NCBI GenBank assembly: GCA_913054335.1
Contig: CAJXHL010000006.1
Span: 1 to 41,720, forward strand
Reading direction: 5' to 3'
DNA: 41,720 nt
Source of the DNA: an uncultured Gammaproteobacteria bacterium
Lineage (GTDB): Bacteria; Pseudomonadota; Gammaproteobacteria; PS1; Pseudothioglobaceae
The notes beneath the pieces are model-generated. The model ran no database searches and was not told the origin of the DNA. It saw only the letters and a program-made list of their open reading frames with translations. Below, piece after piece: positions 1,613 to 23,788 of the stretch. The translations under genes were made by a program, and so were the position numbers. How positions within the stretch are numbered: the first letter of the stretch is position 1; each line of letters starts with the position of its first letter.

Positions 1613-1669
1613 AATCAGAAATATATAACTTATATGCAATAATATTAAGAAATAAGTAAAAAAATCATT

Positions 1670-2920: not shown

Positions 2921-2923
2921 GAA

Positions 2924-3949: not shown

Positions 3950-3954
3950 AATCT

Positions 3955-5430: not shown

Positions 5431-5433
5431 CCG

Positions 5434-7853: not shown

Positions 7854-8086
7854 ACTATTTTTGCAATTCTATTGACTAGTCCTCATGAAGACCACATTTT
7901 AAACGTAAAGCTGAGTTATGAGGAGTGCTAACGACGATTTTACAAAACTTACACCTAAAGGCAGGCTTCGCACTGCTAAACAGTACTAGATTCAGCTATC
8001 ATGAGGCTCTGATATTTCCCCACATCACCAAAAGTTGTCTTCATATTTCTTGGATTTGTTAAAGCGATGCAAAGAGAATATAGTTG

Positions 8087-8896: not shown

Positions 8897-10038
8897 TTTT
8901 CCTCATTTTTGACTTGTTTTCCTGAGCCCCAAACATTGAGCACATTAAAGTTCGAGTCAAAATGTACAATGTCTACTCGGTGGCCTGCTTTGAGTGTGCC
9001 AAGGTGATCATCAATACCAAGATATTCAGCAGGGTATCGTGAAGCCATTGATAACGCCTCATCTAGTGGAATGTTGCATACGTTAACCGCATTTTTAACC
9101 GCATCAATTTGAGTAATTGAGGAGCCAGCGAGCTTGCCAGCAGCGTTGACAATTTTGCCATTTGTGTCATTAAGAACTTCGCCATAGAGTTCAAAAGAAT
9201 CATCGCTATGGATAGTTGCCATGGCGTCCGAAACAAATAATAATTTTCCTTTTGGTTTTTGCTTAAAGGCAAGCTGAACGAGAGCGGGGTGAACGTGATG
9301 ACAATCCACAATAATACTTGCAATTGCCTCATCAAAGTGAAGAGAGGCGCCGACCACTCCGGGCTCTCTAGGTGAGATTTGACTCATTGCATTGTAGATG
9401 TGAGTGAAACCGCTCAATCCGCAGTTGATTGCCTCGCTGATTCTTTCAAAATCTGCATCTGTATGGCCCGCTTGAATTTTGACCCCCATAGTGGATAAAA
9501 GCTTTATCTGCTCCAGGGGCACACACTCTGGTGCTATCGTTAGAATAACTTGTAAATCTTTTAAGTTTTGGATTAATTCAATATAGTTAGGGTTCCATTC
9601 ACTTATAAAATTTTCATTATGAGTGCCGCGGTATTTATGGCTAAAAAATGGCCCTTCAATATGCAAACCAACAATAGCAGGATTGTCTTTTATTGCCTTG
9701 TTAACGGCATTAGTGCAGGCCTTAAGATTCTCTATGGAGTCGCTAATAACAGTGGGCATAATACTTGTTGTGCCAAAAAATTGATGTGCATTCGTCATCA
9801 ATTGCAAACTTTCCTTTGTGGGCGAATTATTAAATAACACCCCACCACCACCATTCACTTGGAGGTCAATAAAACCAGGCGCCAATACCCCATCGCCTAC
9901 ATCCTTTACGATGAATTCATTTGGGATATTGTTTTTTGCAACAATGCCAACAATTGTTTCAGCTTCAAATAACAGGGCGTGCTTGTCAAAAAAAGCTTCA
10001 CCAGAATATATTCTCGGCCCAACTATCGCTTGTTTCAT
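8893..10038 (-). CDS. nagA: N-acetylglucosamine-6-phosphate deacetylase
   Basis: 381 aa amidohydrolase-superfamily enzyme that removes acetate from GlcNAc 6-phosphate to give glucosamine 6-phosphate for NagB. The metal and catalytic set is visible: APGFIDLQVNGGGG (about 53-66), E128 in HIEGPF, H192 in AGHTDAD, H213 in THIYNAM, H247/H248 in DCHHVH and catalytic D271 in FVSDAMA. It overlaps nagB downstream by 4 nt and the regulator gene upstream by 4 nt (10035-10038), so regulator, nagA and nagB form one minus-strand operon. The enzyme needs a phosphorylated substrate, yet the kinase gene of this cluster is broken. Confidence 0.95.
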   Translation of the reverse strand: MKQAIVGPRIYSGEAFFDKHALLFEAETIVGIVAKNNIPNEFIVKDVGDGVLAPGFIDLQVNGGGGVLFNNSPTKESLQLMTNAHQFFGTTSIMPTVISDSIENLKACTNAVNKAIKDNPAIVGLHIEGPFFSHKYRGTHNENFISEWNPNYIELIQNLKDLQVILTIAPECVPLEQIKLLSTMGVKIQAGHTDADFERISEAINCGLSGFTHIYNAMSQISPREPGVVGASLHFDEAIASIIVDCHHVHPALVQLAFKQKPKGKLLFVSDAMATIHSDDSFELYGEVLNDTNGKIVNAAGKLAGSSITQIDAVKNAVNVCNIPLDEALSMASRYPAEYLGIDDHLGTLKAGHRVDIVHFDSNFNVLNVWGSGKQVKNEEK

Positions 10039-10787
10039 CCGAGTTCCACAACATAATCATAGCGGTCACCACGGTAATAGGATTGGGTGTATTCAACCAT
10101 CCTGCCACAAGCGGCTTGGCCTCGTCTTTCAACGTACAACACTGCACTACCAGGTGCAATTTCCAATTTTTCTGCAATTTCTTCACTGGCGTTAATGGCA
10201 TGAATATTTTGCTTTGCAGTCACGGGGTTCATATTTTTCGCTCGCAAAGACTCGTAAAGTGAATTGTCCAGTGCTGTCTCAATAGAGATAATGGAGGCTG
10301 GGACAGCAGCTATTTCATATGCAAGTGGTTCGTTAACTAAAATTCTGATACGATTAAGGCGATGAATAAACTCATTCTCATCTAAATTTAATATGAGAGC
10401 CTCTTTTGGGGTTGCTTTACTCTCTTCACGTAATACAATTCTTGAATGAGATTCTAGTCCACGTTTTTTCATATCAGCAGTAAAGCTGTTAAGAGATGAT
10501 AGGTTTTTATGTAGAACAAGGTCGACTCTATCGGTAACAACCGTGCCCGCACCATGTTGTTTATGCAACATGCCAATATCAACTAGCTGAGCAATGGCTT
10601 TACGAACAGTAATTCTTGACATGTTAAGTTGGGAGGCAAGTTCACGCTCTGGTAGCAAGGAGTCTCCCGGCAAGAGCATACCTTGTTGGATAGCATCATT
10701 AAGGGAACGAGACAATTGTTTGTAGAGAGCTCCAGGTTTATCACCCGAAGGTCGCAAAAAATTAATTAGTGTGTCTGAGTCTACCAT
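10035..10787 (-). CDS. GntR-family (HutC/NagR type, UTRA) regulator of amino-sugar genes
   Basis: About 250 aa from the ATG at 10787, with an N-terminal GntR winged helix (GALYKQLSRSLNDAIQQG, then LPPERELA-like LLPERELASQLNMSRITVRKAI) and a C-terminal UTRA effector domain ending in the typical RGDRYDYVVEL. Regulators of this group sense amino-sugar phosphates (NagR/YvoA, DasR), which fits the location. A longer reading frame extends to 10844. I prefer 10787 because it starts 4 nt after the kinase-pseudogene stop and lies just before conserved GntR sequence, whereas the longer form would overlap the kinase by 53 nt with unrelated residues. It probably represses the nag genes and the divergent hexosaminidase/transport operon. 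Confidence 0.85.
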   Translation of the reverse strand: MVDSDTLINFLRPSGDKPGALYKQLSRSLNDAIQQGMLLPGDSLLPERELASQLNMSRITVRKAIAQLVDIGMLHKQHGAGTVVTDRVDLVLHKNLSSLNSFTADMKKRGLESHSRIVLREESKATPKEALILNLDENEFIHRLNRIRILVNEPLAYEIAAVPASIISIETALDNSLYESLRAKNMNPVTAKQNIHAINASEEIAEKLEIAPGSAVLYVERRGQAACGRMVEYTQSYYRGDRYDYVVELG

Positions 10788-10791
10788 TGAA

Positions 10792-11657
10792 TTATTGTAG
10801 TTGAATATTTGCAAGCAGAAGTGCACCAGAGGCAGCACTGCCAAACGGCTTACTTAACTTAACTTGTGTTTTTTTGCATAGAAGAGGCTCAACAAATTGA
10901 GCTAAACCACAGACCAAAGAGACACGCTCAGGTTTTTTTTGAAAAATCATTTGCAGAGAACTCTCTATATGAAAGGTCATTGCATTTATTAAGACAGAAG
11001 CGAGTCGATCAGATTGTTTGTAATGTTCAATCACGTTTTTTGCATATTTTGCGTATTGGGTAGAAGTAAAACCTTTTGCCATAATTGGTATTTCATTGGC
11101 ATCATTATATTCTAATAATATCGACTGCGTCAATGGGCTATGAAAAATAATCCCATCTATGACATTTAAAGTCTCTTGAAAGCAGCTCAATCCAAGCCAT
11201 GGCCCACTACCAAGATCCGCTAGTGGAAAGCCCCAACCGCCTTTTACTGTAAACGAATAGTTGTTGATTTCACAAGATGCTATCCCAATTCCAATTTCTA
11301 ATATTGCACCATTTTTCCTTGATGTGCGCCCAGACAAGCTATGTGTATATCACTAGTAAAGGTCATTTCGCTAAAAGGGTGTTGCCATTCGCTAATGATA
11401 ATTTTAGCTTTTGGTATTTCTAGGCCTGCTATCCCTAATACTGCAGCACTGTTGTATATTTCGCTGGTTACAATACCTGCCTCTTTAAACGCCAACTTAT
11501 AAGCAACAAGGATGTGTTAATTGCAGATAACGTCGATATTAGCAGGCCTTGCAAGACCCTTACCAATAATTTCACCATTGATATTTGCAACACATGCCTT
11601 GCATTTAATGACCCCAGAATCAATACCAACTAAGTATTTAATTTAATTATTTTTCAT
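10792..11657 (-). pseudogene. Broken BadF/BadG/BcrA/BcrD-type N-acetylglucosamine/glucosamine kinase
   Basis: Read in one direction, the region spells out a kinase of the ASKHA/BadF family that phosphorylates GlcNAc or glucosamine with ATP. The N-terminal part has KYLVGIDSG, LAFKEAGI and AAVLGIAG; the C-terminal part has VKGGWGFPLADLGSGPWLGL and VCGLAQFVEPLL. At least three lesions break it: an in-frame TAA four codons after the only ATG (11643-11645), another in-frame TAA at 11517-11519, and a frameshift in a 5-A run (T-run at 11312-11316 on the plus strand) where a sixth A would restore CLGAHQGKNGAILEIG. The ATP-binding loop expected as GIDGGGTK reads GIDSGVIK, and the second phosphate loop reads GIGIASC. 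Decay is therefore more likely than sequencing error. The C-terminal end still sits 4 nt before the regulator start, a relic of the operon. Confidence 0.85.
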
Positions 11658-11740
11658 AAATTTAGCATCTATATATTTAATTAAATAGTAAAAAAAATTA
11701 TTTTTTTGAAACTTACTTACTTTTCTGTAAACTGCTATTA

Positions 11741-11765
11741 TATAATACCATTCTAGAACCAATTA
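11741..11765 (+). promoter_or_regulatory. Candidate -10 box and operator-like site of the hexosaminidase operon
   Basis: A perfect TATAAT (11741-11746) is followed at the likely transcription start by ACCATTCTAGAACCA (11747-11761), a direct repeat of ACCA at 11-bp spacing around the palindrome TTCTAGAA. DasR/NagR-type GntR regulators bind TGGT-CTAG-ACCA-like sites, so this may be a degenerate operator for the adjacent regulator. I do not see a good -35 at normal spacing. Confidence 0.35.
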
Positions 11766-11878
11766 TCGAAAAAGGTTGAAGTACTCGATAAGACCGTAAA
11801 GTCAAGGAAAAGCAATTAATTTATATTTATGCAAGGATTATATTCTACAACGCAAAAAATAATTCGAGAGCTCAAAGT

Positions 11879-13894
11879 ATGATCTCAAGCGAATTAATAA
11901 TGACAAATACTGTTGATTCGGATGGCGTGTTTAATTGTAGCTTCACTAATAATGGCGACATGCCCATTCGTAATTTTATGCTTTGCTTTAATATGCTCGC
12001 TCCTATTATGTCAGTTTCAAATTGTTGTATTGAATCGACCATGGGTGGTTATGCTGAATTAAAACCATTAAAAGATCAGTTGTTAGATATGAATGACACT
12101 TGGTCATTTCAGTTGAGTTATGTTGACGCTCTTCATAAGCCACTCAATCTCTCTTGGGGGCCTCAAGGCGTGTTCATTAAATTAGCTAATGCCAGTATTG
12201 TCGATGTTCATACAGAAGATTTAAGATTTCAGCAGTTCTCCACCCCGCCGGCACCAGTTGAAGAGCTTAATCAAAATAAAACTCTCCTGCAGTCTCTTAG
12301 ATTGGTGCCACACCCCAAGTATTGGAAACCAAGCAATAGCGTTTGTACCATTAAACACCCTTTATGCACTCAATGGAAAGACAATGAAGTTGTTAATAAA
12401 GCCTATCAAAATGCTTATAAACTCAGTCAAAGACTCAATTTTGATTTGCTTAGAAAGCATCCAATAAGAGATTCTATGGCTTTTAGTACAAAGCTTTTTA
12501 TTAAAAAACGCAAGAAAACAACCCCTTCTTCTTATCAACTGATCATCACCAGCGATGCAATCGAATTAGAAGCAGGCGATGAAAGTGGGGTTTTTTATGG
12601 GCTAGTTACTTTGTTACAGTTGGATCAAATGTATCATAAATTAATTCCTTGCGGAGTAATCAATGATGAGCCAAGGTTTGAATGGCGAGGCCAGCACTTA
12701 GATTGTGCTAGACACTTTTATTCTGTTGGTAGTTTGCATCGATTGTTAGATTTAATGGCTTTATTTAAGCTCAATAAATTCCATTGGCATGGCTCGGATG
12801 ATGAAGCTTTTCGTTTTAAGTTTGATTGCAACCCAGAATTAGCTGAGACAACCTCACTGAGAGGTGATGGTCAGTTGATCCCACCACTTTTTGGTTCGGG
12901 TGCAAAACCCACTGGCGGTTGCTATGATGCAAATGATATAAGATCTGTTGTTAGCTTTGCGCAGAATAACTATATAGACGTTATGCCTGAGATTGAACTA
13001 CCAGGACACTGCTTGTCACTACTTCGCTTTAACTCAAAACTAAGAGATCCGAATGATAAAAGTAACGAAATTTCGGTACAAGGTTACAGTAACAACACCC
13101 TTAACCCCGCATCACCAGAGACTTGGGCACTGATTCAGCCCTTAATAAAAGAGGCTTGCAAGTTATTTCCTGGTGAGTATATCCATTTGGGTGGCGACGA
13201 GGTGCCGGAGGACAGCTGGTTGGCTTCTCCCTTGATTGATAAGTTAAAGTTGCAGCACAAACTAGAAAACAACAATGACATTCTTGCTTGGTTTATTAAC
13301 GAATTGTCGCAGAATGTTTTATTTAACAATAAAAAAACAGCCGCCTGGCAGGAGGCCGAGCTAGGCACACATTCCGAAAGTAAAACAGATAAGTTGCTAT
13401 TTGCTTGGCAGGATTTAGCCTCTGGACACGAGTTGGCCAGAAAAGGAGCCAAAGTTGTTTTGTGCCCGGCTGAGCATTTGTATTTTGATATGGCTCAGAG
13501 TAGTTCATCTTTAGACAGGGGCGCCAACTGGGCGGGGATAGTCACTTTAAACGACACGGTGGATTGGCAAATCGTGCCAGAAAATGAGTCAGAGCTTGAA
13601 GACAACATCCTCGGCATACAAGGCCAACTCTGGAGTGAAATGATAACCGCAGATAAGCATATGGAAGCCATGCTATGCCCTAGAATTATTGGCTTATCTG
13701 AGAGCGCTTGGACTTCTGCAAGTAACAAAAGAAAAGGCAGTGAATTAAACATTTTAGCTTATAACAGTTTTAGAGATTTATTTGAGCAAATAGGCTGGGA
13801 GTATTATAGATCTGAAAATTTTCAAAATATTTCTGATGAAGATAGTATTAATAAGGAGGGTTTAGCTAGTGAAGCAGTTTATTCAAAAGTTTAA
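11879..13894 (+). CDS. Cytoplasmic GH20 beta-N-acetylhexosaminidase
   Basis: 671 aa. It cleaves terminal GlcNAc/GalNAc from beta-linked oligosaccharides by substrate-assisted catalysis. An N-terminal beta-rich region (1 to about 125, FNCSFTNNGDMPIRNF) resembles the accessory domain of bacterial chitobiases. A GH20b domain follows (about 140-260, ELEAGDESGVFYGLVTLLQL), then the TIM barrel from EPRFEWRGQHLDCARHF (about 264) with HWHGSDDEAFR and the catalytic Asp-Glu pair D440-E441 in IHLGGDEVPED. There is no signal peptide, so it should act on imported oligosaccharides such as chitobiose. It heads an operon with an ABC sugar importer, and its 3' end overlaps the first permease gene by 26 nt. 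It diverges from the nag operon. Confidence 0.92.
   Translation: MISSELIMTNTVDSDGVFNCSFTNNGDMPIRNFMLCFNMLAPIMSVSNCCIESTMGGYAELKPLKDQLLDMNDTWSFQLSYVDALHKPLNLSWGPQGVFIKLANASIVDVHTEDLRFQQFSTPPAPVEELNQNKTLLQSLRLVPHPKYWKPSNSVCTIKHPLCTQWKDNEVVNKAYQNAYKLSQRLNFDLLRKHPIRDSMAFSTKLFIKKRKKTTPSSYQLIITSDAIELEAGDESGVFYGLVTLLQLDQMYHKLIPCGVINDEPRFEWRGQHLDCARHFYSVGSLHRLLDLMALFKLNKFHWHGSDDEAFRFKFDCNPELAETTSLRGDGQLIPPLFGSGAKPTGGCYDANDIRSVVSFAQNNYIDVMPEIELPGHCLSLLRFNSKLRDPNDKSNEISVQGYSNNTLNPASPETWALIQPLIKEACKLFPGEYIHLGGDEVPEDSWLASPLIDKLKLQHKLENNNDILAWFINELSQNVLFNNKKTAAWQEAELGTHSESKTDKLLFAWQDLASGHELARKGAKVVLCPAEHLYFDMAQSSSSLDRGANWAGIVTLNDTVDWQIVPENESELEDNILGIQGQLWSEMITADKHMEAMLCPRIIGLSESAWTSASNKRKGSELNILAYNSFRDLFEQIGWEYYRSENFQNISDEDSINKEGLASEAVYSKV
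13853..13859 (+). promoter_or_regulatory. Strong ribosome-binding site that fixes a GTG start
   Basis: AAGGAGG lies inside the hexosaminidase coding region, 9 nt before the GTG at 13869, and decides the start of the first permease, which has no suitable ATG near its N-terminus. Confidence 0.75.
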
Positions 13895-14810
13895 ACCCAA
13901 AACAAAATCTCAAACTACCACGCTTTTTGCCTGGGCTTTGATTACACCTGCTGCTCTAGTTATGTTTTGGATAGTTGTTTGGCCTTTGTATGAAACATTT
14001 AGACTTTCATTTACAAATTCGAATTTAGGTACATTGATGAGTGGTGCAGATTATATTGGTTGGGAAAACTATGAAAAACTACTTGGTGGGCGTAAATTTC
14101 CTGAAATTGTTACTCGAACTTTTTATTGGATGTTTCTTTCTGTTGGTTTGAAAATGATATTGGGTTTGATTGGAGCAGCTTTATTAGCAAGCAACATTAG
14201 GGCTCGTGGCGTCATTAGAGCATTAGTGATGCCGCCATGGATTGTACCGATAGCAATTGGTTGTTTTGGTTGGTTATGGATGTATAACGGACATTTTGGC
14301 ATACTCTCAAACTTTGCAGAAATGGCTGGTATAACGGATGGGCCGTTTAGTTTTTTAGCCTATAGACAGAGTGCATTTTATTCAGCAGTAGTGACCGATG
14401 TTTGGATCGGAACGCCAATGGTTACTTTATTCTTTTTAGCAGCAATGCAAGGGGTTCCAAAAGATCTATATGAAGCTGCTTATGTTGATGGTGCTTCACG
14501 TTGGTATCGTTTTAGAAGGATTACTTTGCCACAAATTATGCCTACTATTGTTTCTATGGCATTATTGTCGGCAATTTGGACATTTAATTCTTTTGAAATT
14601 ATTTGGATTTTGACTGAGGGTGGACCGCGTGGCGCTACCACTACATTAATTATTGATACCTTTAAAACAGCCATTTTTAGCTATAAATTTGGTGCGGGCG
14701 CAACCAGAGCAGTGCTTGTTGTTTTAATATTAGGTGTATTTTCAGTAATTTATTTAAGCGTATTAGGAAGAATTAGCAAAAAATATAGCTATTCTAGAGT
14801 ACAAAAATGA
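13869..14810 (+). CDS. Sugar ABC transporter permease, MalF/UgpA type
   Basis: 313 aa inner-membrane permease of a CUT1 (oligosaccharide) importer. About six membrane segments are visible, the first at about 18-42 (LFAWALITPAALVMFWIVVW). The cytoplasmic EAA loop that contacts the ATPase reads YEAAYVDGASRWYRFRRITLP. It starts with GTG, supported by a strong upstream ribosome site, overlaps the hexosaminidase gene by 26 nt, and overlaps the next permease by 4 nt. Context points to amino-sugar oligosaccharides such as chitobiose as substrate, but the sequence alone does not prove it. Confidence 0.9.
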   Translation: MKQFIQKFKPKTKSQTTTLFAWALITPAALVMFWIVVWPLYETFRLSFTNSNLGTLMSGADYIGWENYEKLLGGRKFPEIVTRTFYWMFLSVGLKMILGLIGAALLASNIRARGVIRALVMPPWIVPIAIGCFGWLWMYNGHFGILSNFAEMAGITDGPFSFLAYRQSAFYSAVVTDVWIGTPMVTLFFLAAMQGVPKDLYEAAYVDGASRWYRFRRITLPQIMPTIVSMALLSAIWTFNSFEIIWILTEGGPRGATTTLIIDTFKTAIFSYKFGAGATRAVLVVLILGVFSVIYLSVLGRISKKYSYSRVQK

Positions 14811-15691
14811 TGGATAAATATTCACGCTTACATAAGATAGGAATTTATGTTTCTATAGCACTATTCTTATTATTTATGCTACTTCCTTTTGTTGAGATGT
14901 TTGTTGCGTCCCTTAGGCCAATAACACACCTGTTTAGTCGTCCTCCACTGGAAGTAGGCGAGACACTGAGTTTTATGGACTTTATGAGTCGATTCTGGTC
15001 AGACAAAATGAGTTTTCAGGCTTATAGAGATATGTGGGTAACGGTCCCACAATTGCCGCGCTATATATTTAATAGCGTATTCTTAGCGACTGCTGTTACT
15101 GGTATTTCGTTGTGTTTTGTGATACCTGCTGCTTATGCTTATGCACGTTTTAACTTTCGTGGTAAATCACTCAGTCTTACTCTTTTTCTTGCAGTAAATA
15201 TGTTTTCTGGCGCAGTATTGCTGATACCTTTGTATAAATTATTACGGTCTTATGGCTTATTAAATACTTATTGGGCAATGATCATTCCAGGAGTGGCGTT
15301 TCTTATACCTACTGGAATATGGCTACTCAAATCTTTTTTAGAAAAAATCCCTTATGAGTTAGAGGAGGCAGCTTTTGTTGATGGCGCATCTCGACTTTAT
15401 ACATTACGAAAAGTAATTCTGCCACTTGCAGTTCCAGGCATAGTGGTAGTTGGTGTTGCAATATTTATTGGTGCTTATGCACAGCAATTTTTATTTGCAC
15501 TTACATTTAATCAAAATAGAGATTACATGCCACTTCCAGCTGGAATATTTGAGTTTATTGGGTACCAGTCAGTATTATGGAATGAGATGATGGCAGCGAG
15601 TCTTGTAGGAATTCTGCCCGTGTTGTTAATTTTCCTGTTTATGCAGAAACATCTCATAGCAGGTTTAACTTCAGGGGCAGTTAAGGAGTGA
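14807..15691 (+). CDS. Sugar ABC transporter permease, MalG/UgpE type
   Basis: 294 aa partner permease of the same CUT1 importer. It has an N-terminal membrane helix (IGIYVSIALFLLFMLLPFVE), a long periplasmic loop, and the EAA motif LEEAAFVDGASRLYTLRKVILP. Start and stop codons overlap with the preceding permease (ATGA), implying coupled synthesis of the two halves of the channel. Confidence 0.9.
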   Translation: MMDKYSRLHKIGIYVSIALFLLFMLLPFVEMFVASLRPITHLFSRPPLEVGETLSFMDFMSRFWSDKMSFQAYRDMWVTVPQLPRYIFNSVFLATAVTGISLCFVIPAAYAYARFNFRGKSLSLTLFLAVNMFSGAVLLIPLYKLLRSYGLLNTYWAMIIPGVAFLIPTGIWLLKSFLEKIPYELEEAAFVDGASRLYTLRKVILPLAVPGIVVVGVAIFIGAYAQQFLFALTFNQNRDYMPLPAGIFEFIGYQSVLWNEMMAASLVGILPVLLIFLFMQKHLIAGLTSGAVKE

Positions 15692-15715
15692 GGATTTAAA
15701 TACTCACATAAAGTG

Positions 15716-15743
15716 TTACTAGAGTTGTTTTAAATTCTAGTAA
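15716..15743 (+). repeat. Stem-loop ahead of the binding-protein gene
   Basis: TTACTAGA (15716-15723) and TCTAGTAA (15736-15743) form a perfect 8-bp inverted repeat with a 12-nt loop. It sits in the 79-nt gap between the permease and binding-protein genes. No T-run follows, so it is more likely an mRNA-processing or stability element, or an operator, than a terminator. Confidence 0.4.
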
Positions 15744-15770
15744 TTTAATATAAACAGAAAGGAGAAGTAA

Positions 15771-16976
15771 ATGAAAAATATAAAAAAAGGACTCTTCCTA
15801 GCATTTATTGGTGCAAGTTTTATGGCGCCAGTTCAGGCTGAAGAAGTTCATATGATAATGTGTGGTGGTGAAATCCGTGCGGCCGATCAAGTAGTAATTT
15901 CTGCTTTTGAGGCGAAGAACCCTGGCGTTACTGTTAATGCTGAAGCGCTTCCTTGGGGAACATGCCAAGACAAATCAATGACACTAGCTGCTGCTGGTGA
16001 CCCACCAGGTTTGTCTTATATGGGTTCACGTACGCTGAAGCAATTAGCTCGTAATGGCCTGATTGTTCCAATAACCATTTCAGAAGATCAACAGGCAATG
16101 TATCAGCCAGGTATTCTTAATACTGTAACTGATAGTGGAGAATTTTGGGGCTTCCCCCACGCTTTTTCTACTAAAGCACTATTCATCAACTGTGGTTTAG
16201 TTGAAGAGGCTGGTTTAGCTTGTGTTGGCCCTAAAACATGGACAGGAATGTACAATATGGCTAAGGCTATTAATGATAATACCTCAGCTGCAGGTATTGG
16301 CATAACTGGAAAGGACTTTGATAACACTATGCACCAATTCCTAAATTACTTATACAGTAATGGTGGCTCTGTAAATGATGCGGCTACTGGGGAGATAACT
16401 TTTAACAGTCCTGAGACTATTGAAACACTAGAGTTTTATGGTAAGTTAGCTACGGTTGCACAGGAAGGGCCTATGGCATATGAGCGTTCTCAATTGACTC
16501 AGTTGTACAATGATGGTCAGATTGGAATGTACATCAATGGCCCATGGGGCGCAGGTCAACACAATGCAAATATTGCTGAGATAGTTGTGCCTATTCCTGC
16601 TGGTCCAAGTGGTGAGAGTGGTACACTATTGATCACAGACTCAATAGCAGTATTTAAAGGTTCTGCTAATGAAGCTCTAGCAATGGAATTAGCCGCTGCT
16701 CTTTCATCTGGTGATGCACAATATGACCTAGATATGAGCTGGGGTTTAACGCCAATCATGCAGTATGAAAAAGTGATGGACGATGTTTACTATTCTACTG
16801 ACTACTGGCAGACATTCGTTGCGTCAATCGGTAGTGGTGGTCCAGAGCCAATGTTTGAGGACTTTAAAGCATTGCAAGCTGGTATTAACGGTGCCATTCA
16901 AGGCATGCTTATGGGTGAAGGTTCTGCTGCTGATCTAGTTGCAGAAGCTGCTGAAATTCTAGCAGAAGGTAACTAA
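15771..16976 (+). CDS. Periplasmic sugar-binding protein of the CUT1 importer (family 1)
   Basis: 401 aa with a clear signal peptide (basic MKNIKKG, hydrophobic core, VQA-EE cleavage near residue 24). The mature protein is a family 1 extracellular solute-binding protein with the usual start of a metal-free sugar binder (ISAFEAKNPGVTVNAEALPW), GDPPGLSYMG, and the IGMYINGPWGAGQ segment near residue 250. Four cysteines (MCGGE, GTCQDK, INCGL, LACVG) could form two disulfides. A strong ribosome site (AAAGGAG) precedes the ATG. It captures the oligosaccharide for the two permeases. A terminator-like hairpin follows, which would make this the most abundant product of the operon. Confidence 0.9.
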   Translation: MKNIKKGLFLAFIGASFMAPVQAEEVHMIMCGGEIRAADQVVISAFEAKNPGVTVNAEALPWGTCQDKSMTLAAAGDPPGLSYMGSRTLKQLARNGLIVPITISEDQQAMYQPGILNTVTDSGEFWGFPHAFSTKALFINCGLVEEAGLACVGPKTWTGMYNMAKAINDNTSAAGIGITGKDFDNTMHQFLNYLYSNGGSVNDAATGEITFNSPETIETLEFYGKLATVAQEGPMAYERSQLTQLYNDGQIGMYINGPWGAGQHNANIAEIVVPIPAGPSGESGTLLITDSIAVFKGSANEALAMELAAALSSGDAQYDLDMSWGLTPIMQYEKVMDDVYYSTDYWQTFVASIGSGGPEPMFEDFKALQAGINGAIQGMLMGEGSAADLVAEAAEILAEGN

Positions 16977-16990
16977 GTCAATTAATTGAC
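16977..16990. repeat. Perfect 14-bp palindrome just after the binding-protein stop codon
   Basis: GTCAATTAATTGAC is exactly self-complementary and begins at the nucleotide after the TAA. It may be an operator or part of the 3' structure with the hairpin that follows. Its role is unknown. Confidence 0.5.
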
Positions 16991-16996
16991 TATTTC

Positions 16997-17028
16997 AGGG
17001 GCGGCTTAATGTTGCCCTTGAATTTTTT
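16997..17028 (+). terminator. Partial terminator between binding-protein and ATPase genes
   Basis: AGGGGCGGC (16997-17005) can pair with GTTGCCCTT (17011-17019) around a 5-nt loop (nine pairs, three of them G-U), followed by six T residues at 17023-17028. Placed inside a coherent transport operon, it probably attenuates transcription so that the ATPase and dehydrogenase genes are made at lower level, or they use a second promoter in 17030-17138. Confidence 0.6.
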
Positions 17029-17138
17029 AAGGCTAACTCTGAAAGAAGGTTTTATGAGCTTTTTTTAAAGTTTGCTTTAATCAAAGATTAATACTATTTA
17101 ATGCATACAGATTATATGCTTTCATTAAGGAAGAAATT

Positions 17139-18233
17139 ATGGCTACAGTAAAACTTGAAAATATCTATAAAAGTTTTGGTGAAACAGAGGTTTTATTTGA
17201 TATTAATCTTGAAATAAATGACAAAGAGTTTGTTGTCTTTGTGGGACCTTCAGGGTGTGGAAAAACAACCTTATTAAGGATTATTTCTGGGCTTGAAGAG
17301 GCTACAAGAGGTCAGGTAATTATTGATGATAAAAATGTCTCTAATGCGCCACCTGTAGAAAGAGGAATTTCAATGGTTTTTCAGTCCTATGCACTGTATC
17401 CACATTTGTCTGTTTTTGAAAATATTGCTTTTCCATTAAGGGTGGCGAAGATTAAAGGAAAAGAATTAGAGGAGAAAGTTTTTAAAGCCGCTGATATTTT
17501 ACGGTTAAGAGATCGTTTGGATTTTAAGCCAGGGCAACTTTCTGGCGGACAACGCCAAAGGGTTGCAATTGGTAGATCGATCGTAAGAGAACCTAAAGTT
17601 TTTTTATTTGATGAACCTTTATCAAACTTAGATGCAGCGCTTCGAGCTGACATGAGGGTTGAGCTGGCTAAGTTACATCAAAACTTAAAGACAACAATGA
17701 TCTATGTCACCCATGACCAGATTGAAGCGATGACTATGGCTGACAAGATAGTGGTTTTGCATGATGGAGTTATTGAACAAGTTGGCTCACCAATGGAACT
17801 CTACCACCACCCTATGACAAAATTTGTGGCTGGATTTATTGGGCAACCAAGAATGAATTTTTTAACAACAAACAACGTCGTAGTTAAGAATAAAAAAATA
17901 ACTGCTAGTGTAACTGAATTTAATAGCGTGACTTTATCAGTTGAAGTAGACGAAACAAAATCAGGTGACGTAATTGAGATTGGTATAAGGCCTGAAGACC
18001 TAGAAGTTACTTCAGACAAAAAAGGTTTGCCAATGAATGTTGAAGTCGTTGAACACCTTGGTGCAACAGTAATACTGTATGGCTCTGTACAAGGGAATAG
18101 TGATTTTTGCGCCGTATTGCCTAGTGATGTAGATGTGAAACCAGGACAGATAATAAACTTAGAGCTAAACCCATCAAAATGTCACGCTTTTAAATCAAAT
18201 GGCCAAGCGCTTTATCGAAAATTAGAAGGATAG
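17139..18233 (+). CDS. Sugar ABC transporter ATPase, UgpC/MsmX/MalK type
   Basis: 364 aa ATPase. It has Walker A GPSGCGKTT (about 37-45), a Q-loop in MVFQSYALYPH, signature LSGGQRQRVAIGR (about 134-146), Walker B VFLFDEPLSNLDA, an H-loop in YVTHDQ, and the C-terminal TOBE/regulatory domain of CUT1 ATPases (about 240-364, GIRPEDLEV). It energises import by the two permeases upstream. An AAGGAAG ribosome site precedes the ATG. Confidence 0.93.
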   Translation: MATVKLENIYKSFGETEVLFDINLEINDKEFVVFVGPSGCGKTTLLRIISGLEEATRGQVIIDDKNVSNAPPVERGISMVFQSYALYPHLSVFENIAFPLRVAKIKGKELEEKVFKAADILRLRDRLDFKPGQLSGGQRQRVAIGRSIVREPKVFLFDEPLSNLDAALRADMRVELAKLHQNLKTTMIYVTHDQIEAMTMADKIVVLHDGVIEQVGSPMELYHHPMTKFVAGFIGQPRMNFLTTNNVVVKNKKITASVTEFNSVTLSVEVDETKSGDVIEIGIRPEDLEVTSDKKGLPMNVEVVEHLGATVILYGSVQGNSDFCAVLPSDVDVKPGQIINLELNPSKCHAFKSNGQALYRKLEG

Positions 18234-18238
18234 TTTAG

Positions 18239-18244
18239 AAGGGG
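18239..18244 (+). promoter_or_regulatory. Ribosome-binding site favouring ATG 18252
   Basis: AAGGGG lies 7 nt before the ATG at 18252 but only 4 nt before the in-frame TTG at 18249. The ATG is therefore the better start. Confidence 0.6.
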
Positions 18245-18251
18245 AATATTG

Positions 18252-19421
18252 ATGAGAATAGCTATTGTTGGATTAGGTTTGAGAGCTGGAAACGTCCTAA
18301 AGATGATGAAGGAAGAGATGCCAGAAATGGAGCTTGTTGGCTATGTTGATCCTGATCCATGCGGACTTTTACTACTAAAGGATTGTTCAAGTGAGTTAAC
18401 TAAATACAAAAATCTTGAAAAGATGATTGACGAATGCAAACTTGATTTACTTTGGGTGGCGTCTCCTAATCATCTTCATTTAGAACATATAAAAACAGGA
18501 CTTGAGGCGGGTCTAAAGGTTTTTTCAGAAAAGCCAATTGTAACAACAAAAAACGATAGTTTTGCTCTCGCTAAACTGATAAAAAAATATGGTGAAAGTC
18601 AATTAATGGTAGGTTTGGTGTTGCGCTACTCGCAACATATGCAATATTTACGTCGAGCTATTGACGGTGGATTGTTGGGAAGGATTACATCTATCGAAGC
18701 AAACGAGCACATTGCCCCCTACCATGGCTCTTTTTTTATGCGTGATTGGCGTCGACTAAAGCAATATTCTGGCGGCTTTATGCTGGAAAAATGTTGCCAC
18801 GACTTGGACTTATACAACAGCATTGTTGGTGAGCGGCCCAGCAAGTTGGCCAGTTTTGGTGGGCGTCATAATTTCATCCCTCAAGAGGCCCCTGAGTCTG
18901 GTAAGCATGATGATGTTTATCAATCTAAAGAATCTTTTTGGAATTTTGTCAATGATCCATTTGACTCTGATGGTGACATAGTTGATCATCAAAACGCACT
19001 GCTTGAATATCCCAGTGGGGTTAGTTTTAGTTTTCATACCAGTATTAATGTGCCTGATGAGCATCGACGATTTTGCATCATTGGCTCCCGCGGCATGGCA
19101 GAAGGGGATTTTCTTCGCGGCGATCTTTGTATAACTGATGCACGTACGGGCGCCTGCTTAGAAAAACATAATTTTAATGACACCGAAGCGCACAAAAAAG
19201 AATTTGGCTTTCATTATGGTGCGGATAAAGCCATGTGTTTGGATATTATTGGGCACCTGAGGGGTGAAATAAATTCTCTACCGGTTGGCGCTAAAGATGC
19301 TATTGAGGCTGGGCTTACGGCAATGAAAATTGATGAAAGCAGAGAATCTGGACAGATGATCAGTATGGCGACAACTTGGTCAGAGCTCGATAAGTGCTAT
19401 TTAGGAAAAAAACATGATTAA
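18252..19421 (+). CDS. Gfo/Idh/MocA-family sugar dehydrogenase (first copy)
   Basis: 389 aa NAD(P)-dependent oxidoreductase with an N-terminal Rossmann fold (IAIVGLGLRAGNVLKMM, residues 3-19), WVASPNHLHLEHI, and the family signature lysine in SEKPI (about residue 93). The C-terminal alpha/beta domain holds the ligand histidines (KCCHDLDLYN). Such enzymes oxidise or reduce a sugar hydroxyl, often making 3-keto sugars. It lies after the sugar importer ATPase (18-nt gap) and overlaps the isomerase gene by 8 nt. It differs clearly from the second dehydrogenase of this operon, so the two are not a recent duplication. The substrate is unknown; an amino sugar or amino-sugar glycoside is inferred from context. 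Confidence 0.85.
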   Translation: MRIAIVGLGLRAGNVLKMMKEEMPEMELVGYVDPDPCGLLLLKDCSSELTKYKNLEKMIDECKLDLLWVASPNHLHLEHIKTGLEAGLKVFSEKPIVTTKNDSFALAKLIKKYGESQLMVGLVLRYSQHMQYLRRAIDGGLLGRITSIEANEHIAPYHGSFFMRDWRRLKQYSGGFMLEKCCHDLDLYNSIVGERPSKLASFGGRHNFIPQEAPESGKHDDVYQSKESFWNFVNDPFDSDGDIVDHQNALLEYPSGVSFSFHTSINVPDEHRRFCIIGSRGMAEGDFLRGDLCITDARTGACLEKHNFNDTEAHKKEFGFHYGADKAMCLDIIGHLRGEINSLPVGAKDAIEAGLTAMKIDESRESGQMISMATTWSELDKCYLGKKHD

Positions 19422-20268
19422 AGGTATTAGTTACTGGGCGTTAGAAGGTGGTCTGGACGGAACTCATTCGATCGACTCGGCAATATACCAAGCAAAATCA
19501 GCCGGTTTTGACGCGCTTGAATTGGCAATCTCTACTGAGGGCGTACTAACAACTTCGACTTCAGCTGAGACTTGTAAACAAATTCGCACGAAAATTAACG
19601 ACTCGGATTTGATTGTAGACACGCTTGCCAGTGGCATGAGTTGGGGTACTAATCCGACAAGCAATGATGCTAAAGTGCGTCAACGTTCAATCGATTTGCA
19701 TAAAGATGCACTTCGAGTTGCAAGTCATTTGGGTTGTAAAGCGTTACTTTTTGTGCCGGGTGTTGTGAAAAGCCCAATCTCAAGTGATATTGTGCGTTAT
19801 GACGAGGCTATAAAAAGAGCTAGAGATGCAATAGAACAATTATTACCTGTTGCTGAGGATTGCGGTGTTGATCTATGTCTTGAGAATGTCTGGAATGGGC
19901 TTTTTTATTCGCCTTTAGAGTTTCGTGATTTTATTGATTCTTTTGATTCACAGAGCTTAGGTATCTATCTTGATGTGGGGAATTTACTGGGATATCAGCA
20001 ATACCCGCCACACTGGATTGAGTTGTTGGATTATCGAATTAAGAGAATTCACATTAAAGACTATCGAGAAAATTTTGGTTGGACAGGTGGGTACACCTTT
20101 TGTGACCTTGGGTCGGGAGAAGTGCCTTGGGCGGCCACGATTAAAGCGCTTAAAAAGATAAATTACAAAGAAACCATTATTGCGGAAATGTTGCCGTGGG
20201 ACGAGAGTTTATTGCAACGCACATCAAAAGCAATGGACCAATTGTTTGGTTTCAACACCGATAATTAA
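19414..20268 (+). CDS. Sugar phosphate isomerase/epimerase-like TIM barrel (AP endonuclease 2 fold)
   Basis: 284 aa protein of the xylose-isomerase-like TIM-barrel family. Metal-site features typical of the group are visible: CLENVWNGLF with a Glu at about 156, IYLDVGNLLGY with an Asp at about 189, RIHIKDYR with a His at about 212, and TIIAEMLPWD with a Glu near the end. Members epimerise or isomerise sugars, keto sugars or inosose, and frequently pair with Gfo/Idh/MocA dehydrogenases, as here between two of them. It overlaps the upstream gene by 8 nt. No specific reaction can be assigned. Confidence 0.85.
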   Translation: MIKGISYWALEGGLDGTHSIDSAIYQAKSAGFDALELAISTEGVLTTSTSAETCKQIRTKINDSDLIVDTLASGMSWGTNPTSNDAKVRQRSIDLHKDALRVASHLGCKALLFVPGVVKSPISSDIVRYDEAIKRARDAIEQLLPVAEDCGVDLCLENVWNGLFYSPLEFRDFIDSFDSQSLGIYLDVGNLLGYQQYPPHWIELLDYRIKRIHIKDYRENFGWTGGYTFCDLGSGEVPWAATIKALKKINYKETIIAEMLPWDESLLQRTSKAMDQLFGFNTDN

Positions 20269-20276
20269 AACATAAG

Positions 20277-21317
20277 ATGGCTAGGAAATTAAAAGTAGGT
20301 GTGATTGGTCTGGGTATGATGGGCACAACTCATCTTGATATTTATGCACAAATGAGTGAGGTCGAAGTGGTGGCTATTGCTGACACCAACCCAGACTTAC
20401 TTGATGGCAGCTTGCAGGCAAAAGGAAATATTGAAGGTCAGGCAGCTGGCAGTGTTAAAGCACTCAATGTAAAAAAATACTCAGATGGCATGGGTTTAGT
20501 CAGCGACCCAAAGGTGGAGCTCGTGGATATCTGTGTAGGAACTCATTTACATTTTTCTTTTGTTGAGGCGGCCTTGATCCAAGAAAAGCATGTGCTTATT
20601 GAGAAACCTTTAGCCAGATCCGCTGAACAGGCAAGACGCATTGTTGAGTTGGCGAAATGCTCAACAAAAGTCGTTATGTCGGCCATGTGCTTACGCTACT
20701 GGCCAGCTTGGCTATGGTTAAAAAAAGCGATTGACGATAATCGATTTGGTGCTTGTTTGTCACTCAATTGTAGGCGTCACACATCACACCCACCAGGTGA
20801 TTTTTACTCGAATAGCGAGCAGTGTGGTGGCGCGTTGCTTGATTTGCATATTCACGACACCGATTTTATAAATTTTTGTTTCGGCATGCCACAAGCTGTT
20901 TTTAGCCAAGGCCATTTAGGCCCAAGCGGTGGAATTGATTATGTATCAACACAATATATTTACAACCAAGCGCAAAGAGCAATCGTGCACGCAGAAGGCA
21001 CTTGGGATCTCCAAGAAGGGTATGGTTTTTCAATGTCGTATACGGCTAACTTTGAAAATGCCACGTTAAATTATGTACTGGCAGATGAAGAAACATTAAT
21101 GTTATTTGTTGCAGGCGATGAGCCAAAAAACGTAGAATTGCCAGACGGCATGGGCTATGAATTTGAGATTCGTGAGTGTGTTGACACTATCCTAGAGAAT
21201 CGTTCAACGGATATGAATTTATTAAATCAAGCGGCTGATTCTCTTGTTATTATTGAAGCTGAACAAGCCAGCATAAAGTACTGCTCTGTTGTGCCAATAA
21301 AAGAAAGGCTTGACTAA
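20277..21317 (+). CDS. Gfo/Idh/MocA-family sugar dehydrogenase (second copy)
   Basis: 346 aa. It has Rossmann motif VGVIGLGMMGTTHLDIY (residues 7-23), a dinucleotide-ribose Asp in VVAIADTNPD, a VGTHLHFSF block and the signature lysine in LIEKPLARS (about residue 102). The C-terminal domain contains GGALLDLHIHDTDFINF, the probable catalytic histidine region. It is the last gene of the hexosaminidase-transport operon, 8 nt after the isomerase. Together the three enzymes look like an oxidation, epimerisation and reduction module acting on the imported sugar; this is inference. Confidence 0.85.
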   Translation: MARKLKVGVIGLGMMGTTHLDIYAQMSEVEVVAIADTNPDLLDGSLQAKGNIEGQAAGSVKALNVKKYSDGMGLVSDPKVELVDICVGTHLHFSFVEAALIQEKHVLIEKPLARSAEQARRIVELAKCSTKVVMSAMCLRYWPAWLWLKKAIDDNRFGACLSLNCRRHTSHPPGDFYSNSEQCGGALLDLHIHDTDFINFCFGMPQAVFSQGHLGPSGGIDYVSTQYIYNQAQRAIVHAEGTWDLQEGYGFSMSYTANFENATLNYVLADEETLMLFVAGDEPKNVELPDGMGYEFEIRECVDTILENRSTDMNLLNQAADSLVIIEAEQASIKYCSVVPIKERLD

Positions 21318-21506: not shown

Positions 21507-22142
21507 GTGCAGCATTCAAGTCAAAATAATAGTAAAGAAGACGCCGACTCCCTTATTGGTAACAAGTTGCGTGAACATCGTAAGGAATTAAAACTATCAA
21601 TGAAAGAAGTTGCTGAGGTAGCAGGCTTATCTATCGGTTTTATTTCCCAAGTGGAGCGAGGGTTAACTGCACCTTCACTGTCTTCACTTTCCTCAATTGC
21701 AAAGGTTCTAAACACGGATATTTCAACTTTTCTCAGCCAGCCAGAGGGTAAATCGAGCTTTACTCGCAACAAGGATCGTGCCGTTTACACTTTGAGTCAC
21801 AAAGGTCTTCAGTATGAGCGCTTATCTGCGTCTTTTCCAAGGAGCGTTCTTAATAGTGTCATTATGCATGAAATGCCTGGACATAGGCTAGAGTCAATTA
21901 AACATGAAGGCGAAGAGTTTTTTTTTATTTTAGAGGGTGCAATCACGGTCTACATAGAGGAGGAAGAGAACATCCTTGAAGCTGGAGACTCAATTCATTT
22001 TGACTCAATGCGTGAGCATTCCGTATGGAACCATACTGACAATCCAACAACAATATTGCATGTTTGCACAATGGATATATTTGGTGACAAACAAGGTACA
22101 AAAGAAATTCCCAACACTCGTGCTGGGCGTAAAGGTGTTTAG
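21507..22142 (+). CDS. XRE-family regulator with C-terminal cupin domain
   Basis: 211 aa. An N-terminal Cro/CI-type helix-turn-helix (about 18-74, LREHRKELKLSMKEVAEVAG then LSIGFISQVERGLTAPSLSS) is joined to a cupin sensor domain (about 118-188, HEGEEFFFILEGAITVYIEE, then EAGDSIHFDSMREHSVWN). PuuR is a known member of this architecture. These proteins usually repress adjacent catabolic or transport genes and sense a small metabolite. It starts with GTG; no better start is visible. It sits 59 nt upstream of dppA, and its promoter is bracketed by three copies of a 19-bp site, suggesting autoregulation and control of the dpp genes. Confidence 0.9.
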   Translation: MQHSSQNNSKEDADSLIGNKLREHRKELKLSMKEVAEVAGLSIGFISQVERGLTAPSLSSLSSIAKVLNTDISTFLSQPEGKSSFTRNKDRAVYTLSHKGLQYERLSASFPRSVLNSVIMHEMPGHRLESIKHEGEEFFFILEGAITVYIEEEENILEAGDSIHFDSMREHSVWNHTDNPTTILHVCTMDIFGDKQGTKEIPNTRAGRKGV

Positions 22143-22172
22143 ATAGCTTTGTAACTCATTGCTTATCTAAAC
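22137..22172 (+). repeat. Inverted repeat spanning the regulator stop codon
   Basis: GTTTAGATAGC (22137-22147) and GCTTATCTAAAC (22161-22172) can pair with one bulged base. It lies between the regulator and dppA, overlapping the regulator TAG codon. No T-run follows. It could be a second binding site of the regulator or an mRNA hairpin. Confidence 0.4.
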
Positions 22173-22201
22173 TTATTAGTGTTTAACAAGAAGGAGATGT
22201 A

Positions 22202-23788
22202 ATGAAAAAAACGTTACTTATAGCCAGCCTAGGATTAGGCTTGGCATTATCAGGAGTGGCTCAAGCCAAGACCCTGGTGTTCTGTTCTGAAGGAAGCCCA
22301 GAGGGATTTAACCCTGCGCTGTATTCGGCAGGCACCACGTTTGACGCCTCTTCACAAACAATATACAACCGTCTGGTGCAGTTTGAAACAGGCACCACCA
22401 AGGTGATTCCAGGTTTGGCTGAATCTTGGTCTGCTTCTGCAGACGGATTGGAGTATACATTTAACTTGCGTAAAGGCGTTAAGTTCCATACCACTGAGGA
22501 CTTTACCCCCACACGTGACTTTAATGCCGATGATATTTTGTTTACCTATAACAGAATGTGGAAGGAAGACCATCCTTACCATGATGTAGGCGGTGAGTAC
22601 TTATATTTCGGCTGGATGGATATGGGTTCACTGCTTAAGTCAATCGATAAGATTGATGACTACACAGTGAAGTTTACACTTACTAAGCCTGAATCACCTT
22701 TTGTGTCTAATTTGGCCATGGACTTTGCCTCGGTGTTGTCCGCTGAATACGGAGACAATTTGGCTGCAGCTGGCCGTAAAGCTGACATCGATCATAAGCC
22801 AGTTGGTACTGGACCATTCGTCTTAAAGTCTTACAAGAAAGACTCTATGATTCGTTACATAGCACACGATGATTACTGGGACGGTCGCTCCAACATCGAC
22901 AAACTCGTGTTTGCAATCACTACTGATAACAGCGTTCGTTATCAGAAACTGAAAGCGGGCGAATGTCATGTCATGCCTTACCCTAATCCGGCTGATCTTG
23001 CCGCTATGGAAAGTGATCCAGACATCAATTTGATGCGTCAGGAAGGTTTAAACGTGGGCTATTTGGCTTTCAATACTGAAAAACCACCATTTGATCAAAA
23101 AATAGTTCGTCAAGCATTGAGTATGGCCATCGATAAGCAGGCTATATTGGATGTGGTATTTGAAGGTGCGGGTTCGATAGCGAAAAACCCAATTCCACCA
23201 ACCATGTGGTCTTACAACGATGATGTTGTTGACTATCCATACGATCCAGCTAAGGCTAAAGCTATGCTTGATTTAGCAGGCGTGAGTGGACTGAAGACTA
23301 ACATCTGGGCTATGCCGGTGCAGCGCCCTTACAATCCAAATGCTCGTCGGATGGCTGAACTGATTCAGGCAGACTGGGCTAAAGTAGGTGTTGAGGCAGA
23401 AATCGTTACTTTTGAGTGGGGTGAATATCTTAAACGCTCTAGAGACGGTGAACACGACACTATGTTGCTAGGTTGGACTGGTGATAACGGTGACCCTGAT
23501 AACTTCATGTTTGTGTTGTTAGGTTGTGAAGCTGCCGCGTCTGGTGGTAACCGCGCTCGCTGGTGTAATAAGCCGTTTGATTACCTCTTGCGTCAGGCAA
23601 AACAAAAAACTGACCAAGCTGAACGTACCGAGTTGTACGAGATGGCTCAGGTGATCTTCAAAGAAGAGGCGCCATGGGTAACCATTGCTCACTCTATTGT
23701 GTTCAAACCTGTTCGTAAGGAAGTAATAGGCTTCAAAGTGCACCCACTTGGAAGTCATATTTTCTACGACGGAGTTGACCTGAAATAG
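22202..23788 (+). CDS. dppA: Periplasmic dipeptide-binding protein
   Basis: 528 aa family 5 solute-binding protein very close to enterobacterial DppA. It has a signal peptide (MKKTLLIASLGLGLALSG, cleavage after AQA at about 22), a mature start KTLVFCSEGSPEGFNPALYS, and shared blocks HVMPYPNPADLAAM, IPPTMWSYNDDV, WAMPVQRPYNPNARRMAELI and MLLGWTGDNGDPDNF. Cysteines at the mature N-terminus, in GECHVMP and in the LGCEAAASGGNRARWC region match the disulfide-bonded ones of DppA. It binds dipeptides (and in some species haem or aminolevulinate) for the DppBCDF importer. A good AAGGAG ribosome site precedes it, and two stem-loops follow it before dppB. Confidence 0.96.
   Translation: MKKTLLIASLGLGLALSGVAQAKTLVFCSEGSPEGFNPALYSAGTTFDASSQTIYNRLVQFETGTTKVIPGLAESWSASADGLEYTFNLRKGVKFHTTEDFTPTRDFNADDILFTYNRMWKEDHPYHDVGGEYLYFGWMDMGSLLKSIDKIDDYTVKFTLTKPESPFVSNLAMDFASVLSAEYGDNLAAAGRKADIDHKPVGTGPFVLKSYKKDSMIRYIAHDDYWDGRSNIDKLVFAITTDNSVRYQKLKAGECHVMPYPNPADLAAMESDPDINLMRQEGLNVGYLAFNTEKPPFDQKIVRQALSMAIDKQAILDVVFEGAGSIAKNPIPPTMWSYNDDVVDYPYDPAKAKAMLDLAGVSGLKTNIWAMPVQRPYNPNARRMAELIQADWAKVGVEAEIVTFEWGEYLKRSRDGEHDTMLLGWTGDNGDPDNFMFVLLGCEAAASGGNRARWCNKPFDYLLRQAKQKTDQAERTELYEMAQVIFKEEAPWVTIAHSIVFKPVRKEVIGFKVHPLGSHIFYDGVDLK

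Follow-up and report, generated by a model that had tools for sequence, protein, structure and literature searches.

Gene content and conservation of the locus

The window analysed here is a whole 41,720-nucleotide stretch, contig 6 (CAJXHL010000006.1) of a 1.695-Mb metagenome-assembled genome (MAG; 93.8% complete, 104 contigs) from a gammaproteobacterium of the family Pseudothioglobaceae. It contains a divergent amino-sugar locus (Table 1). The minus-strand arm carries nagB, nagA and gntR. The plus-strand arm carries a GH20 gene, two permease genes, the genes for the solute-binding protein (SBP) and the ATPase of an ATP-binding cassette (ABC) importer, and the trio gfo1, iso and gfo2, which encodes two Gfo/Idh/MocA dehydrogenases flanking a TIM-barrel protein. 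The remnant of an N-acetylglucosamine (GlcNAc) kinase gene sits between the two arms.

A preliminary description, made from the sequence alone, had recognised an amino-sugar locus with intact nagA and nagB. This was borne out: profile matches were obtained for every gene it named, in the same order, and NagA and NagB both scored above their NCBIfam cut-offs. The nagB and nagA genes fall outside the 10792-21317 region delimited there but belong to the same locus. The start of gntR is probably near 10787, where 10 of the 12 relatives with a whole locus align from residue 20, and the other two from residues 13 and 24. No obvious signal peptide was seen in the GH20 protein when it was inspected by eye.

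Table 1. Coordinates and profile evidence for the features of the amino-sugar locus (aa, amino acids; PWM, position weight matrix).
Feature	Position	Strand	Evidence
nagB, glucosamine-6-phosphate deaminase, 269 aa	8087..8896	-	TIGR00502 304 bits, cut-off 237
nagA, N-acetylglucosamine-6-phosphate deacetylase, 381 aa	8893..10038	-	TIGR00221 301 bits, cut-off 226
gntR, GntR/UTRA regulator (HutC-like)	10035..10844	-	Pfam GntR and UTRA
BadF/NagK-type GlcNAc kinase remnant	10792..11640	-	C-terminal piece 10792-11337, N-terminal piece 11313-11630; NagK_SO3507 3.4e-27
Putative second GntR operator, within kinase remnant	11083..11110	+	PWM score 24.6
Putative GntR operator, GH20 promoter region, genus-conserved	11737..11764	-	PWM score 32.1
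GH20 beta-N-acetylhexosaminidase, 671 aa	11879..13894	+	PF00728 1.1e-86, PF02838 1.8e-10
ABC importer permease 1	13869..14810	+	PF00528; 86.6-93.3% identity among genus relatives
ABC importer permease 2	14807..15691	+	PF00528; 87.4-95.6% identity among genus relatives
Solute-binding protein SBP_bac_1 (MalE-like)	15771..16976	+	PF01547 2.5e-34
ABC importer ATPase (MalK/UgpC type)	17139..18233	+	NF008653 452 bits, cut-off 432
gfo1, Gfo/Idh/MocA dehydrogenase	18249..19421	+	PF01408, PF22725, PF02894; best PDB 8qc3 6.1e-19
iso, xylose-isomerase-like TIM barrel (AP_endonuc_2)	19414..20268	+	PF01261 8.3e-41
gfo2, Gfo/Idh/MocA dehydrogenase	20277..21317	+	PF01408 1.9e-21

Conservation was assessed in a genus sample of 29 species, including that of the window, within a family whose genome sizes range from 0.7 to 2.8 Mb. 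The iso gene was found in 19 of the 29 genus genomes and was missing from all 54 other genomes searched within the order; nagA was found in 21 genus genomes. All 12 relatives in which a single stretch covers the whole locus shared the order nagB-nagA-gntR, then divergently GH20-permease-permease-SBP-ATPase-gfo1-iso-gfo2. None of them had a kinase open reading frame between gntR and GH20, where the gap was 289-402 bases. All 18 fetched genus relatives carrying iso also had gfo1.

Two Oceanospirillaceae MAGs (L082 and L083) carry nagB-nagA-iso-gfo2 as adjacent genes on the same strand, divergent from the GH20 and ABC genes. No NagK-type kinase was present at either locus, genome-wide BadF and ROK matches were below the cut-off or missing, and gfo1 was absent from both loci. 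Because the Oceanospirillaceae carry iso and gfo2 with nagB-nagA yet without gfo1, these two genes look like the core of the module. The locus is a genuine variant of the nag pathway that has lost the kinase and is conserved in the genus, and the trio is an uncharacterised oxidoreductase/epimerase-like module that probably acts on an N-acetylhexosamine (HexNAc). Among the titles and abstract openings listed from the open PubMed Central (PMC) literature, none was recognisable as a description of this locus, and no paper searched there paired Pseudothioglobus with N-acetylglucosamine.

Kinase loss, phosphate sites and candidate replacement

The linked kinase gene is broken, as had been proposed from the sequence: it is split over two frames, with an in-frame TAA and a decayed phosphate loop. 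The C-terminal piece matched NagK_SO3507 over profile positions 118-293 with 96 bits, against a whole-protein cut-off of 370. The N-terminal piece lies in a different frame and has the internal TAA, and PF01869 fragments span both frames. At the expected phosphate-loop position the remnant reads GIDSGVIK; we take the family motif to be GIDGGGT. When six concatenated proteins were used to build a tree with the Oceanospirillaceae as root, the window was sister to the 18 others with support of 0.94. The simplest account of the remnant is therefore that it survives from a kinase that disappeared close to the base of the genus.

No further BadF match and no ROK match was found in the window's own genome, which on its own is weak evidence of absence because this MAG is 93.8% complete and in 104 contigs. 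The absence across relatives is stronger evidence, and two of these relatives are single-contig genomes of 99% completeness. BadF (PF01869) was above its cut-off in none of the 29 genus genomes and ROK in three, one of which (G006) has its match inside the glucokinase gene; the relatives G007 and G008 had no ROK match. For a sugar phosphotransferase system (PTS), the complete genome G008 was searched. At 1e-3 it gave no homologue of E. coli NagK, AnmK, NagE, MurP, FryC, HPr or Crr, and enzyme I matched a 794-aa protein. The preliminary description had suggested looking for an intact GlcNAc kinase or PTS elsewhere in the genome; none was found by these searches, with FGGY, APH and other kinase families not profile-searched.

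Two further candidates were set aside. Cell-wall recycling as a source of GlcNAc 6-phosphate was rejected on G008, which had no NagZ or AnmK match and only a weak MurQ match (8e-6, 188 aa). A gene of about 236 aa behind nagB in the relatives had been suspected as a kinase; by eye, its product resembles a metallo-beta-lactamase-fold hydrolase.

The gntR-GH20 promoter regions of all 13 species compared share an operator-like motif of 28 bases, each having at least one site. The PWM was built from these same 13 promoter regions, including the first site of the window. The second site (Table 1) exceeded the best site of all 20 Markov genomes of 1.69 Mb, whose best scores ranged from 13.9 to 21.0. 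Because this operator-like site lies inside the remnant, the dead kinase gene may now be a promoter region for gntR-nagA-nagB. A third GntR site, in G008 (757879), scored no higher than the best site of the 20 Markov genomes and was rejected.

NagA was compared with E. coli NagA (1ymy), and the metal ligands, the catalytic Asp, the REPG arginine and the DxxH histidine were conserved. For NagB, TRIKTLT and NSRFF were present in four of the five structure alignments examined, which did not include E. coli, and the VTGxNK lysine region was kept. We take the kept Arg and His of NagA, and the TRIKTLT, the NSRFF arginine and the VTGxNK lysine of NagB, to be 6-phosphate-binding residues. Because both enzymes retain these residues, the locus would need a phosphorylated hexosamine, and some kinase must presumably act.

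These sites also bear on two suggestions made in the preliminary description, that the trio serves to prepare a non-standard sugar for NagA or that it bypasses the kinase. The first is favoured here. In the second, phosphorylation would be made unnecessary, with NagA and NagB acting on an unphosphorylated or oxidised sugar. The searches made, which found no GlcNAc kinase or PTS, and the missing NagK-type kinase at the locus in both lineages would agree with it. However, the phosphate-binding residues are retained in both enzymes, and dehydrogenase and epimerase chemistry cannot supply phosphate. We regard such a bypass as very improbable.

Among the three actin-fold kinase families searched (BadF, ROK and PF02685), only the PF02685 glucokinase was common, in 16 of the 29 genus genomes. 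It was present in 14 of the 21 nagA-positive genomes (partial in G011, G016 and G030) and in two of the eight nagA-negative genomes, one copy being broken. The complete G008 retained glucokinase, while zwf, pgl and pgi were not found there and gnd gave only weak matches. The sugar-site motif GEGGH is changed to AQGGH in the G008 glucokinase (L251 17198-18136 = G008:C1:1057198-1058136) and retained in the six other genus glucokinases read. In G019, zwf is fragmented and glucokinase whole; in G024 (76% complete, nagA not found), zwf is whole and glucokinase broken. Both Oceanospirillaceae have edd-glk-pgi (edd and pgi named by eye) abutting the cluster gntR, with zwf, a pgl-type gene and a 2-keto-3-deoxy-6-phosphogluconate-type aldolase gene on the opposite side (Pfam-checked in L082). 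The PF02685 glucokinase is a candidate for the enzyme that phosphorylates GlcNAc, at somewhat less than an even chance. PfkB gave one match in the window's genome and a similar-scoring match in all 10 genus genomes tested, among them the nagA-less G015 and G029.

The TIM barrel and its dehydrogenase partners

The predicted structure of iso (predicted local distance difference test score, pLDDT, of 93.2) matched psicose 3-epimerases, UlaE, AtHYD (8ro4) and YcjR. The gfo1 model had a pLDDT of 56 and was not used. The iso metal site (E157, D187, H213 and E258) aligns with that of UlaE and corresponds to the YcjR residues (hhalign probability 92.7), with the Asp region loosely aligned. Iso therefore has the two-glutamate metal-binding epimerase site of the ycjQRS type. 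The best named profile models were ketopentose-phosphate and ketohexose epimerases. The best function-named PDB match was 3cqh (2.5e-15), of the UlaE/SgbU type, and the top match, 3wqo, is uncharacterised.

AtOGE eliminase is described as having His132 as a metal ligand and His134 as the catalytic residue for 3-keto elimination, and PuCGE as likewise using a catalytic His (PMC10628242). The corresponding position in iso, placed by the shared metal site and not by direct alignment, is Val159 in 68 of 68 aligned iso sequences. With Val in place of the catalytic His of the eliminases, the predicted active site seems better suited to epimerising a keto sugar by proton transfer than to eliminating a glycoside.

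This replacement argues against an oxidative glycosidase, in which gfo2 would make a 3-keto-HexNAc glycoside, iso would eliminate and rehydrate it, and gfo1 would reduce the product back. The trio would then cut a linkage beyond the reach of GH20, such as an alpha-HexNAc linkage or an anhydro sugar, by an Lgd-like or split GH109/GH4 reaction. The best PDB matches of gfo1 were 8qc3 and 8qc2, which we take to be NAD-dependent sulfoquinovosidases, and AtHYD, a 2-hydroxy-3-keto-glucal hydratase, is among the fold matches of iso. Triads of the gfo1/iso/gfo2 type occur in the distant planctomycete loci L190, L191, L195 and L197, and PMC7676230 describes these gene classes, in the form of lgdA/B1/B2/C, together with an ABC importer. 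However, a single TIM barrel is present here and two in Lgd, neither gfo1 nor gfo2 has a Glyco_hydro_109_C domain, and the Oceanospirillaceae manage without gfo1. An oxidative glycosidase is unlikely on balance.

Relatives of the core pair occur in Planctomycetota, Verrucomicrobiota, Kiritimatiellota and haloarchaea. A scan of genome contigs with two peptide patterns only gave 50 loci. Outside the genus, it found iso relatives in the two Oceanospirillaceae MAGs, on 28 contigs labelled Planctomycetota, Verrucomicrobia, Kiritimatiellae and allies, and on three distant contigs. Relatives of iso at 1e-40 were found in 35 of 392 Planctomycetota genomes, and more distant ones on rhizobial and haloarchaeal plasmids. 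A gfo2-family gene was present in 24 of the 35 loci clustered. At 1e-20, gfo1 was confined to genus loci (16 of the 50 loci of the contig scan).

Outside the genus, neighbouring genes were counted at 53 loci, the chimaera L066 (described below) having been removed from an initial 54, with seeds partly drawn from the loci themselves. The duplicate loci L179 (= L087) and L182 (= L100) were excluded from the neighbour and residue counts. At 11 of the 53 loci, relatives of amino-sugar genes (PIG-L, GH20, NagA, NagB, DUF4838 and GH109) lay no more than 6 kb from iso; none of 12 background stretches of 20 kb, picked by coordinate in eight planctomycete genomes, contained amino-sugar genes. This enrichment is suggestive only, since several seeds came from loci that were counted. 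The clearest runs were PIG-L-iso-gfo2 (L098), iso-gfo2-PIG-L (L109), iso-PIG-L (Haladaptatus, L064) and nagB-nagA-iso-gfo2 (L082 and L083), and L187 has GH109-iso-gfo2 on a single strand. The NagA- and NagB-like genes of L098 score below their cut-offs.

The neighbourhoods also bear on an ordinary nag locus with passengers, in which glucokinase or an unknown kinase would supply NagA and NagB while the trio handles the remaining half of the imported glycoside or some unrelated sugar. Such an account agrees with the iso-gfo2 pairs in planctomycete loci that have no seed-type amino-sugar genes, and with the ketopentose-phosphate and ketohexose epimerases as best named models of iso. However, iso-gfo2 is retained with nagAB and GH20 in two gammaproteobacterial lineages, lying directly behind nagA in the Oceanospirillaceae, and PIG-L, GH20, NagA/B or GH109 are neighbours at some other loci. 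We consider passengers a serious account, though not a likely one.

Two apparent GH109 links were dropped. In L066, a contig labelled Longimicrobiales, GH109 stands directly upstream of an iso that is 71-72% identical to that of the window, and had been read as a link to N-acetylgalactosamine (GalNAc). Its last 937 bases (7126-8062) are 94.9% identical to Pseudothioglobus G006. Because this identity begins abruptly at base 7126, together with a drop in GC content, the contig is most likely an assembly chimaera. The 'GH109' of L102 is a generic Gfo protein (34 bits, no GH109_C domain). On a Haladaptatus plasmid (NZ_CP111037.1; L064 11923-13552), the iso relative has a PIG-L deacetylase as neighbour, along with Gfo genes and a sugar ABC importer.

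Proposed pathway and comparison with known systems

The best reading of the locus is an N-acetylhexosamine 3-keto epimerase module feeding NagA and NagB, which we put forward tentatively, as falling short of an even chance. It builds on gene identities, genus conservation, kinase loss, the active sites of NagA, NagB and iso, and the operator-like motif, all read from sequence; from these we infer the substrate, the C3 chemistry and which kinase acts. The ABC importer would take up an oligosaccharide containing beta-HexNAc, and cytoplasmic GH20 would free HexNAc monomers. These would be oxidised at C3 by gfo2, and iso would epimerise the carbon adjoining the ketone, at C4 (GalNAc to GlcNAc) or at C2. 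The ketone would then be reduced back by gfo2, or by gfo1 in the window's genus, so that unusual epimers would become GlcNAc with no net use of NADH. A kinase standing in for the BadF NagK that was lost, with the PF02685 glucokinase as the likeliest choice, would make GlcNAc 6-phosphate, which NagA and NagB would turn into fructose 6-phosphate.

That this pathway is an undescribed variant of marine Gammaproteobacteria, in which a redox-neutral iso-gfo2 pair channels GalNAc or other epimers into GlcNAc ahead of phosphorylation and a former glucokinase has replaced NagK, is doubtful at present. If it were true, one NagA/NagB route would serve the entire mixed HexNAc pool. If the proposed pathway is right, a streamlined genome would need neither NagK nor a sugar PTS to use GlcNAc and its epimers, and a function would be assigned to a widespread, unnamed pair of TIM barrel and Gfo proteins. 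Annotation pipelines should then not call GlcNAc use absent when NagK is missing. Amino sugars make up a large share of marine dissolved organic nitrogen, and the window's genus is a common lineage of ocean heterotrophs.

Several observations weigh against the 3-keto epimerase pathway. No glucokinase match was found in seven of the 21 nagA-positive genomes (G010, G014, G017, G021, G022, G023 and G026; 57-89% complete), G029 retains glucokinase without nagA, and the glucokinase of the window's genome lies within a zwf-pgl-glk-gnd operon. No GntR operator was found near any of the eight glk loci scanned, where the Oceanospirillaceae motif may differ. The glucokinase of G008 might serve biosynthesis, through a need for glucose 6-phosphate, because this genome encodes a GalU-like protein as well as a second GlmM-like mutase. 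G008 also carries four PfkB matches, and glycerol-kinase-like and DgoK-like genes were seen there by eye, FGGY and APH being among the families outside the profile searches.

On the side of iso, His213 is replaced by Gln in all 18 other genus members; the window and 48 of the 49 sequences treated as outside the genus retain the His, the exception being the chimaera L066. YcjR gave no match to the cluster iso at 1e-3, and its sole G008 match was a different protein. At 42 of the 53 iso loci, some of them on short contigs, no seed-type amino-sugar gene lay within 6 kb, and the neighbour excess is weak once the seed-giving loci are removed.

The locus shares NagA, NagB, a GntR regulator, GH20 and a sugar ABC importer with a classical nag locus (NagK, NagA, NagB and GntR-type control). 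It differs in its extra Gfo-TIM barrel-Gfo genes and in having no GlcNAc kinase or GlcNAc PTS found, the remnant being the only trace of this component.

The E. coli ycjNOPQRS cluster likewise combines an importer with a dehydrogenase, an AP_endonuc_2 epimerase and a second dehydrogenase, and the metal-site residues of the TIM barrels match. Its enzymes reportedly convert a guloside into a glucoside by 3-oxidation, 4-epimerisation and 3-reduction. YcjQ is, we assume, a zinc-type dehydrogenase, whose place is occupied here by a Gfo protein. Unlike the window, the E. coli ycj stretch has no GH20 or NagAB. Iso was rejected as a YcjR orthologue, the homology being distant only; on paper the module would operate in the manner of ycjQRS, without belonging to that family. 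The L-ribulose-5-phosphate (L-xylulose-5-phosphate) 3-epimerases of the UlaE/SgbU type share the metal site of iso, whereas iso scored 70.9 bits against their cut-off of 317 and has no pentose-phosphate context.

GH109 and the 3-dehydrogenases BT_2158/BT_2159 share the Gfo/Idh/MocA fold and C3 redox chemistry with the trio, and the GH109-iso-gfo2 run of L187 adds to this likeness. However, gfo1 and gfo2 scored at most 42.8 bits against cut-offs of 650-750 and lack the GH109 C-terminal domain. As described in PMC7676230, the levoglucosan Lgd cluster also has an ABC importer alongside Gfo dehydrogenases and sugar phosphate isomerase-type proteins, but its isomerase-type proteins are two (eliminase and hydratase), against the one TIM barrel of the locus. 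The LgdA model LevoglcsnDh gave 68.7 and 39.8 bits against a cut-off of 650. On the features compared, membership in Lgd, OGE/CGE or GH109 fails.

Directly behind the trio (21507-23788), the window encodes an HTH-cupin regulator and then a family 5 solute-binding protein. Neither was matched in the 18 mapped genus stretches, some of which stop soon after the trio. At 113-6792, the window carries an arginine succinyltransferase-type set consisting of a class-III aminotransferase, an M20 peptidase, AstA, an aldehyde dehydrogenase and AstB.

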